This document shows, one piece after another, positions 1-3,622 of a DNA stretch of 40,766 nucleotides. Both the position numbers and the translations under genes were made by a program. Numbering within the stretch: position 1 is the first letter of the stretch; the number at the start of each line of letters is the position of its first letter. Under the pieces are notes generated by a model. That model saw nothing but the letters and a program-made list of their open reading frames with translations. It had not been told where the DNA came from and did no database searches. The stretch lies in NCBI GenBank assembly GCA_001543015.1, contig LFLC01000034.1, positions 1 through 40,766 of the forward strand, written 5' to 3'. The stretch is from Nitrosopumilus sp. LS_AOA. Its GTDB lineage: Archaea > Thermoproteota > Nitrososphaeria > Nitrososphaerales > Nitrosopumilaceae.

Positions 1-21
1 TATACAAAATCTTAATAGCAC

Positions 22-27
22 TTTATT
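22..27 (-). promoter_or_regulatory. Possible eukaryotic poly(A) signal AATAAA
   Basis: Read on the minus strand, AATAAA lies about 85 bases after the stop codon of the receptor-like gene. This spacing suits a eukaryotic 3' end. The motif is short and the region AT-rich, so a chance match is quite possible. Confidence 0.3.
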
Positions 28-112
28 ATACAGTGCAGTATATTATACTATTGGGGGGAAATATTAAATCTTTTTAATAAAGCAAACTAAACAAAAAAGT
101 TAATATAATCCG

Positions 113-2260
113 TTAATTTACTAGTTCTTCTAAGGTTGTTTCTATCTCTATGGATTTGCTTCTTACAAATTCTGCATGCTCTTGAATTGAACTAAGCTCA
201 ACCGCAATACTATCCCTCCTATATGTTAGTACTTTTATTTCCTGTACAAGCGATTCTTTCATCACGTTATTTATAACTTCTTCTGATAAATATTCAACAG
301 CAGGTTGGTTTGTGTATATTCTTTTTTCTTTTGGATCTTTAAGTACGAAATAGAGTTTTGGAATGAAAAGAAAAGACGCAACTAATACCGTGTCTAGTAG
401 GAAGGAAAGACATATAAGCACAAGTGCGAATTCGTACCACTCGAATATTACCGCATTTAAGAATATTCTTAGGAAAGTTAGCATTATAGTAACTAGTGTT
501 GCATATGCAATAGGAACAAATTCATTAACTCCTCTTATCTTAACCTTTCTGATTAGAAATGCAATAAATATGCCCACAATATATAAGATGGATCTTAATA
601 TTGTGTATATTAATGGCACCCATGCAGTAGGTGATTTGATTTCTCCACCAGGTACACAATTAAAAATAATTCTGAATGGGATATTACTATCTTCTGTAAA
701 TGCACTTTTATATGGGTTGATTCCATCCGAGATGTATTGAAGACGAATACCCTCAATCGCACTCCAAACCACATTGTACACAATATCAACAAAAACAAGT
801 GTTAGAGTGCAAATAACGACCTTCCATTCTGGAAAAACCTTGTTTATATTTTGTTTAACCACGACTATATATAGACGAAGCGATTTTCCAATGAGACTAC
901 CGAAAATTAGATCTTTCGCAATGGCAGGTAATGCATACCGAAGGTGACACATCATGGAGCAATACCAGCATGGTTTATCATTTTCGGGTATTTGTTGGTA
1001 AACTAGATTATCTACTAAATAAGGCAATACAGCAAATATTTCGATCACACAACCAATGAATATAAGAGAATTAATGATAGAGCTACTCAATTTGAATACT
1101 TTTTTGTTTCGATAGATCACGTGCACCACTATAATAAAACTTATATAGATCAAGCTGAGGATCATTAATATTACCATTATACCATATACCCATAGGGGTA
1201 AATGATACAAAATAACTCCATCCAATGGTTGGCCTTGTTTGCCAAATAAACGAATACTGCCTTCAGCGAACCCTTTGAATCCATTGTATTCTTCATAGTC
1301 TGCTGATTCTGAAAGGTTATTTAGGTCGTAAACGATATCAAATTTGCCATTATAGAATTCTATTATTTGGCCACGAGTCTCATATCTCGATGAATCCGTA
1401 TAGCTAACTTGGCCTCCAAGCCCACTGAAACTTACATTATGGATTTGTTTCGTCAGTTCTGTCATGTATTGAAAGTTTGTCGTTTTTTTGCTTATATTTT
1501 TATAGTCAAATTCTTCAATAGCATCTGTATGTAATTTACTCAATGCTATTCCTAGAGTCAACATACTGTCAAAACTATACAATTCATAATTCGTACCCGT
1601 ATCTGAGATATTTGCCTGTACAGCACCATAAATTTGATTACTCCTCTCGAGAAACATATTAAATATATCTAACTGATTCACATTTAATATTGTATCGGCA
1701 TTTTGTTTTAGAGTTCTCTCTCTACTAGGCGTCCCCAAATTTCCTAACGCCCCATTCGCTGCGGTTATTATCTCTTCCGCAGTACAATTTCCTCTTATAT
1801 TGTTGCTTATATACCAGGCCTTGGTGTACCATCCAGGAAATAACCATGTAATTCTTGGATAGATAAAACCTTGCTTGTAAGCTAAGCACAGGACATCTCT
1901 AGCTACGTCTTCATAGAAATTTGCAATCACAATTCTATATTTCTGTTCAGAGCTAGAAAATAATAATTCTAATTTCCGATTAATATCCTGCTCATATCTT
2001 ATATCATTTTCATTACTATACCTATCTATTCCCTCACTTATGGTATCTACCCCATTTTTATTCAACTCAGATTGTAATATTTGCGTTGTTCTAATAAAGA
2101 GTACGTTTAAAGAATAGAGTATACTAATACGTCGCCATTTGTAGTATTTTACTAAATTTACCCAAATAGCTGCAGTCTTTGACTCAGTTGGTGAACCTAG
2201 CGTTAAAGAAGGAAATCGAATCGAATCGGATTCTTTATTATTTTGATCTTTGTTCCACTC
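113..2260 (-). CDS. GABA-B-like class C G-protein-coupled receptor, 5' part missing
   Basis: The frame runs from the stop at 113-115 back to an in-frame TAA at 2261-2263. Numbering from a TTG at 2065, residues 1-270 match the second part of the Venus-flytrap ligand domain of GABA-B receptors (for example IANFYEDVARDVLC and WLFPGWYTKAWY). Seven hydrophobic helices lie near 291-315, 328-352, 372-402, 414-436, 480-506, 515-538 and 545-572. Cysteines at the top of helix 3 (366, 369, 373) and Cys470 in loop 2 fit the class C disulfide. FIPK at 567-570 is the class C signature after helix 7, and residues 595-648 look like a coiled coil. The 55 or so codons upstream of the TTG still read like the receptor (YYKWRRISILY), so the TTG is not a true start. 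The signal peptide and first lobe are absent. This is a metazoan-type receptor in an archaeal contig: sponge DNA or transfer. The family call is strong, the origin unresolved. Confidence 0.85.
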   Translation of the reverse strand, partial: EWNKDQNNKESDSIRFPSLTLGSPTESKTAAIWVNLVKYYKWRRISILYSLNVLFIRTTQILQSELNKNGVDTISEGIDRYSNENDIRYEQDINRKLELLFSSSEQKYRIVIANFYEDVARDVLCLAYKQGFIYPRITWLFPGWYTKAWYISNNIRGNCTAEEIITAANGALGNLGTPSRERTLKQNADTILNVNQLDIFNMFLERSNQIYGAVQANISDTGTNYELYSFDSMLTLGIALSKLHTDAIEEFDYKNISKKTTNFQYMTELTKQIHNVSFSGLGGQVSYTDSSRYETRGQIIEFYNGKFDIVYDLNNLSESADYEEYNGFKGFAEGSIRLFGKQGQPLDGVILYHLPLWVYGIMVILMILSLIYISFIIVVHVIYRNKKVFKLSSSIINSLIFIGCVIEIFAVLPYLVDNLVYQQIPENDKPCWYCSMMCHLRYALPAIAKDLIFGSLIGKSLRLYIVVVKQNINKVFPEWKVVICTLTLVFVDIVYNVVWSAIEGIRLQYISDGINPYKSAFTEDSNIPFRIIFNCVPGGEIKSPTAWVPLIYTILRSILYIVGIFIAFLIRKVKIRGVNEFVPIAYATLVTIMLTFLRIFLNAVIFEWYEFALVLICLSFLLDTVLVASFLFIPKLYFVLKDPKEKRIYTNQPAVEYLSEEVINNVMKESLVQEIKVLTYRRDSIAVELSSIQEHAEFVRSKSIEIETTLEELVN

Positions 2261-2915
2261 TTATCAATTTTTTGTTAGTATGTTTTTTTATTTTTTTCTA
2301 AAATATTATGATATAATCTTTTAATGATAATGATCTCTTCATCATTGATTTCAATATTACATGTGTTTCAAATTGTTAATTGATCTAACGTTGAAGATTG
2401 TGTAAATGTTATTTATTTTTGAATATTTTTTGCAAGATTATTTCCAATTTCAGTAATTTCCATTAAAATCACCCAAAAATTATTTTTTTCATATTTCATT
2501 GAGATTTTTTCAATATTTCGTTTCATTATGGTGGGTACATGTGAAGGAACCCATGAAATATGATCTGCCCGAGTTTAAATGCTAATTCAGAGTGCTTATA
2601 GTTCAACATGACTATTCTCTCATTTAGCTGATTTCACTCACACCCACAAAAAATTTTCTATAAACTTAAAGAAAATAATACCAATTTGGGAAATATTTGA
2701 CCGTATTTTATTGAAAATCATATCATAATTCATGAATTATCCAACTTTTAGATGAAAAATATTTGTAATTGGATTTGGAAGCATGTGAAATTAATAACAT
2801 GCTGTCTATCAAAATTATTTTGTAAGTATGATCTATTTGATGGTTTTTACTTTAAAATTATTATCAACATAAAATATTTCTTTATTGTGATTACGAAATA
2901 ATCTTTTAAATTGTA

Positions 2916-2974
2916 AACAAAACATGTTACACAACAAAACATGTTACACAACAAAACATGTTACACAACAAAAC
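2916..2974. repeat. 17-bp tandem repeat, 3.5 copies
   Basis: The unit AACAAAACATGTTACAC occurs three times head to tail at 2916, 2933 and 2950, followed by the first eight bases of a fourth copy. The copies are identical. Each contains the palindrome AACATGTT. Confidence 0.95.
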
Positions 2975-3183
2975 AATATCTATTGATAATTTACTTATAA
3001 TCTTGAATCCTTGTCATAGATAATTTATACTGCAAAAGTATTAGATGTGACTTTGCGTATTCATTATGTTGATTTATGTTCTAATGTGAATAAACATAGA
3101 TGGAAAAATTCCATTAAAAATTTAGAGATGATGAATCATGGAAAATTAAAATATAATTCAGTATTTTTGATGATGATCAAATT

Positions 3184-3328
3184 TTCTCAATCTTGCATGA
3201 CTCCTGTGAGTATCACTCTAAAACTTCTTCTCAATCTTGCTTGATTCCTGTGAGTATCACTCTAAAACTTCTTCTCAATCTTGCTTGATTCCTGTGAGTA
3301 TCACTCTAAAACTTCTTCTCAATCTTGT
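3184..3328. repeat. 44-bp tandem repeat, about 3.3 copies
   Basis: A 44-base unit beginning TTCTCAATCTTGC repeats with exact spacing; the CTCAATCTTG anchor falls at 3186, 3230, 3274 and 3318. The first copy has two or three substitutions (GCATGACTCC against GCTTGATTCC); the second and third are identical. There are no unique spacers, so it is not a CRISPR array. Confidence 0.95.
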
Positions 3329-3591
3329 ATTGTTGATTTTTAAGGAAAAATCAAAATTTATTATGTTAAAATAGAAATTCAACCTCGTCTGAAATTAATA
3401 GATCGCTTGGTAAGAAAAAAATTCTAACTAATTTTCTCATTCCTTGATCGATATTGAGATAATTAATGTCTATTATGTAATTTGAACCTAATTTTATTCA
3501 AAATCATAAAATCTTAGTAAATACTGTAAAATTATCAACAATTGATGTGAAAAGTATAGAAAATCCCATTTTTGGAATATTCAGCTTATCA

Positions 3592-3599
3592 TTATATGC
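3592..3599 (+). promoter_or_regulatory. TATA box of the giant FnIII gene
   Basis: TTATATGC lies about 27 bases upstream of the ATG at 3623. This is the usual archaeal distance from TATA box to transcription start, so the message would begin at or next to the start codon. No Shine-Dalgarno sequence precedes the ATG, which fits a leaderless transcript. Confidence 0.55.
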
Positions 3600-3622
3600 T
3601 ATAATTTTGTAATTTTAGGCAC

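Follow-up and report, generated by a model that had tools for sequence, protein, structure and literature searches.

An animal-type GABA-B-like receptor fragment at the end of a Nitrosopumilus contig, most probably the product of chimeric assembly

Determining whether an archaeon can encode a class C G protein-coupled receptor (GPCR) is the question raised by a single open frame at one end of a contig assigned to Nitrosopumilus sp. LS_AOA. To our knowledge, the class C family is viewed as restricted to eukaryotes, and a true archaeal member would overturn that view. The window analysed here, 40,766 nucleotides, is the entire contig (C37) and belongs to a bin of 67 contigs and 1.93 Mb, with a listed completeness of 98.63% and a listed contamination of 0.02%. 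The initial annotation had offered two explanations for the receptor: either host DNA had become attached to the contig, or a receptor gene had entered the archaeon. Judged from the sequence data described below, the contig is very probably (roughly 95%) a chimera in which animal DNA was joined to a Nitrosopumilus-like archaeal contig as an artefact of assembly, such that there would be no archaeal receptor and the eukaryote-only view of the family would stand.

A GABA-B-like receptor cut within its flytrap domain

The frame lies on the minus strand at 113-2260 and is open from stop to stop over 715 codons, while the plus strand across the same interval is stop-rich. Its protein matches nearly the whole seven-transmembrane (7TM) profile of class C receptors (Pfam 7tm_3, PF00003; profile positions 8-251 of 251, E 1.5e-19), with 73.8 bits in a profile scan of the bin's own genome, where the family cut-off is 33.5 bits. 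It also matches the ligand-binding Venus-flytrap family ANF_receptor (PF01094) over positions 160-348 of 353 when Pfam is run on the protein (E 4.3e-12), and over positions 87-348 of 353, at 1361-2233 of the window, in the own-genome scan. The best relative of solved structure is GABA-B1 (PDB 9jr0, E 1.6e-31), whose match spans both domains in order, followed by GABA-B2 and GABA-B1 from other entries. Pfam found no cysteine-rich NCD3G domain in the protein, so that the flytrap is joined directly to the 7TM domain, which is the GABA-B architecture (PMC12716839). An FIPK motif is present at residue 632. The C-terminal 52 residues, which contain neither proline nor glycine, show a heptad periodicity reached by only 0.5% of shuffled sequences, and the coiled coil is judged from this heptad contrast.

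The fragment is an ordinary animal-type GABA-B-like class C receptor, as the initial annotation had proposed from the second part of a flytrap domain, the FIPK signature and a terminal coiled coil, all of which we recovered; the significant class C matches (7tm_3 and GABA-B1) settle the identity check that it had suggested. Its seven membrane helices were recovered in part: a simple hydropathy scan gave six clear helices, and the seventh is probably present given the full-length 7tm_3 match. Metazoan GABA-B receptors share with this protein the direct flytrap-7tm_3 junction, the FIPK motif and the C-terminal heptad region, but the protein on the contig lacks the N-terminal part of the flytrap. 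In its own organism, ligand binding would be expected to close the flytrap domain, the 7TM domain would then activate a G protein, and subunits would pair through their C-terminal coiled coil. The receptor has no role in the archaeon.

The gene is incomplete at its 5' side. The first ATG of the frame is codon 202, leaving no native start, and an in-frame stop lies upstream of the frame, at the join with archaeal DNA. Instead of a complete flytrap domain with a signal peptide, the ANF_receptor match begins at profile position 87, beside the end of the frame, and no further piece of the domain was found in 2262-3600. The receptor is therefore a fragment of a class C family member that has lost its start codon and the N-terminal portion of its flytrap at the join, the gene having been cut in the middle of that domain and at a boundary in composition. 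We considered whether the join might instead be a 3' splice site, as the minus strand just before the frame (TACTAAC...ATTGATAAG) resembles a branch point and acceptor. That reading is disfavoured by the composition there, which is already archaeal, and by the T-rich character of a verified acceptor elsewhere in the bin (on C8, below); these points are not decisive, and truncation is the preferred explanation. Beyond the other end of the gene, its 3' flank occupies 1-112 (minus strand) up to the end of the contig and contains an AATAAA at 22-27, about 90 nt past the stop codon; this would suit a eukaryotic poly(A) signal, although the indication is weak in AT-rich DNA.

The join and the archaeal side of the contig

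The receptor fills the terminal 2.26 kb at the left end of the contig, with native DNA on one side only; no run of N separates it from the archaeal genes. Under a Markov model of the archaeal genome, the score falls steeply over 1-2250 and then recovers immediately beyond. Observed/expected CpG is 0.84 in the receptor, compared with 0.44 in 2262-3600 and 0.40 in the archaeal genome, and the corresponding TpA values are 0.98, 0.69 and 0.70. The codon score of the receptor falls at the 1.2nd percentile among 251 archaeal frames. The best switch point, 2226-2240, lies no more than about 35 bases from where the frame ends (2260), and a joint model trained only on the foreign ends of two other contigs (C8 and C36, below) placed it at 2227; the join can thus be assigned to 2226-2262. 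A comparison of k-mer profiles on either side had been proposed as a check, and composition does flip from foreign to archaeal at about 2226-2260.

Owing to the archaeal composition of 2262-3600, the noncoding stretch that separates the receptor from the first archaeal gene (2262-3622) can be attributed to the archaeon. Its last ~140 bases (3480-3622) align with sequence upstream of that same gene in two related records, of which one is a Thaumarchaeota metagenome-assembled genome (MAG; NORP47), and where other genes, and no receptor, lie upstream. This noncoding stretch by the join also holds a perfect 17-bp tandem repeat of 3.5 copies (2916-2975) and a near-perfect 44-bp tandem repeat of 3.3 copies (3184-3327). 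A possible decayed archaeal gene at 2275-2526 (minus strand) was discarded, having no convincing homologue.

The first archaeal gene past the join (3623-25237, plus strand) encodes a 7204-aa surface protein with NHL repeats at its N-terminus and a great number of fibronectin-III-like repeats, in which a ricin-type lectin stretch is also embedded. Two records (L060 and L061) contain relatives that are shorter, at 2183 aa or more. L061 is a contig filed under a Phycisphaerales bacterium MAG (OFTM359) that carries a 68% relative of the gene together with its upstream DNA; it is probably archaeal and was binned with a bacterium. Other archaeal genes on C37 include those for a tRNA endonuclease, a PhoU-like protein, DNA ligase, FBPase, EF-1A and ribosomal protein S10. 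From about 2260 to 40766 the contig is truly archaeal, its source being a Nitrosopumilus-like ammonia oxidiser.

Eukaryotic genes at other contig ends of the bin

A composition scan covered both ends of all readable contigs, 1.39 Mb of the 1.93-Mb bin; the other 0.5 Mb or so consists mostly of the interiors of long contigs, and two contigs (C54 and C65) read entirely as N. Besides the rRNA operon, the strongest foreign signatures were the end of C8, the start of C36 and the receptor stretch itself. Under models trained on the C8 or the C36 end, none of 1,144 archaeal 2-kb windows scored as high as the receptor stretch (+30.2, where the archaeal maximum was -8.1, and +7.2, where it was -22.3), and with cross-trained models the stretches on C8, C36 and C37 all exceeded those 1,144 windows. 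Two of the outliers were native, an ordinary branched-chain amino-acid ABC transporter region on C12 and the rRNA operon on C11; composition alone is thus no proof, and for C8 and C36 it was gene content that decided. The start of C59 and the end of C22 were mildly foreign in composition and gave no family match.

The end of C8 (9654-14108) carries a spliced FAN/NSMAF gene with PH_FAN (E 3.4e-39), BEACH (E 1.6e-45 and 7.3e-48) and WD40 matches. A 449-bp GT-AG intron interrupts it, and excision of this intron restores the BEACH frame; BEACH was found neither elsewhere in the bin nor in 14 control genomes. The gene adjoins an archaeal integrase gene. The start of C36 (1-2600) contains one or more exons of TTC21/IFT139 (Pfam E 3.2e-31; PDB TTC21B, E 1.3e-16), with GT...AG exon edges. 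Further animal-like frames are seen in the same 2600 bases, and archaeal genes begin at about 2950. Near this join, at 2855-2950 and just past an archaeal gene, lies a long inverted repeat (GGCGTAAACCCC...GGGGTTACGC) for which Rfam gave no match. Finally, C49 begins (1-680) with a frame-broken, coiled-coil piece resembling KIF3A (PDB E 9.7e-7). The query was approximate, two reading frames having been joined and the first residues being inexact, and for this reason we consider C49 only a probable further chimeric end. Two, and probably three, other ends therefore show the same wrong joining to eukaryotic, probably host, DNA.

Chimerism, its alternatives and the source of the foreign DNA

The terminal position of the receptor, the truncation of its gene, the sharp switch in composition and the intron-bearing eukaryotic genes at other contig ends together point to a chimeric contig, and support the suggestion of the initial annotation that host DNA had been joined to archaeal DNA. 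Bases 1 to about 2260 would represent a stretch of an animal genome with the 3' part of a GABA-B-like receptor gene, joined to archaeal DNA at a point within the flytrap domain. The joining probably took place while the library was being prepared or in assembly, and library ligation, amplification or a graph error may each account for it. Chimeric or contaminated MAG contigs of host-associated microbes share foreign contig ends, sharp switches and truncated foreign genes with the contig described here and, as in such MAGs, several contigs are affected despite a listed contamination of 0.02%. A literature search on chimeric contigs yielded nothing specific.

The nearest competitor, which we regard as very improbable, is horizontal transfer, wherein eukaryotic DNA was integrated into the chromosome of a host-associated thaumarchaeon recently, repeatedly and perhaps as degraded fragments. 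Receptor and archaeal genes do share one contig without an intervening run of N, and sponge-associated Thaumarchaeota have been reported to carry eukaryote-like protein domains (PMC7848895). However, a gene that had entered the archaeon would be expected as an intact, expressible frame, and this one is cut at the join, with no ATG before codon 202, retains a foreign dinucleotide and codon signature, and reaches the end of the contig rather than being flanked by native DNA on both sides. The distribution of the gene is also unfavourable to the transfer envisaged earlier: the receptor was found in none of 40 close relatives, 7tm_3 exceeded its cut-off in none of 397 other genomes of the phylum (sub-threshold matches reached 20.9 bits in G258 and 18.2 bits in G075), and neither a viral contig collection nor a species-level genome collection, the latter searched by peptide pattern, yielded a copy. 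Moreover, the C8 and C36 ends, with their spliceosomal intron or GT...AG exon edges, could not be expressed in an archaeon, and a transfer scenario has to posit several independent and recent insertions that bear introns, every one of them interrupted by a contig end.

It is less credible still that the stretch is archaeal and encodes a membrane protein of the archaeon's own, which has a periplasmic-binding-like domain and merely resembles class C receptors. Archaea do have ANF_receptor-like binding proteins, with matches in the bin itself (on C14, C28, C23 and C12), and the family is matched in several control prokaryotes too. In contrast, 7tm_3 occurs in none of the 14 control genomes and stays below its cut-off in the 397 others, the GABA-B1 match runs through both domains in order, and the composition of the receptor is foreign. 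The converse arrangement, archaeal DNA inserted in an animal genome of which the contig is a piece, would equally place both kinds of DNA side by side, but is scarcely conceivable with 38 kb of intact archaeal genes (those for DNA ligase, FBPase, EF-1A, S10 and others) beyond the join and with the same pattern on two or three further contigs of a bin that is 98.6% complete.

Returning to the chimeric contig, the combination of FAN, TTC21 and a GABA-B-like receptor with a direct flytrap-7TM junction points to an animal genome, and KIF3A fits with this. FAN and TTC21 occur outside animals too. The foreign DNA would plausibly come from a sponge or some other host, or from an animal represented in the same sample, and the fragments are a hint that animal and archaeon live together or were sampled together. 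They also serve as a warning: despite its listed completeness of 98.6% and contamination of 0.02%, this bin has pieces of animal genes at several of its contig ends, and these can be misread as eukaryote-like symbiosis genes. A sponge is a plausible donor, since Nitrosopumilus species are known sponge symbionts (PMC7848895) and one sponge, Ephydatia muelleri, has more than 120 metabotropic GABA receptors (PMC7385117).
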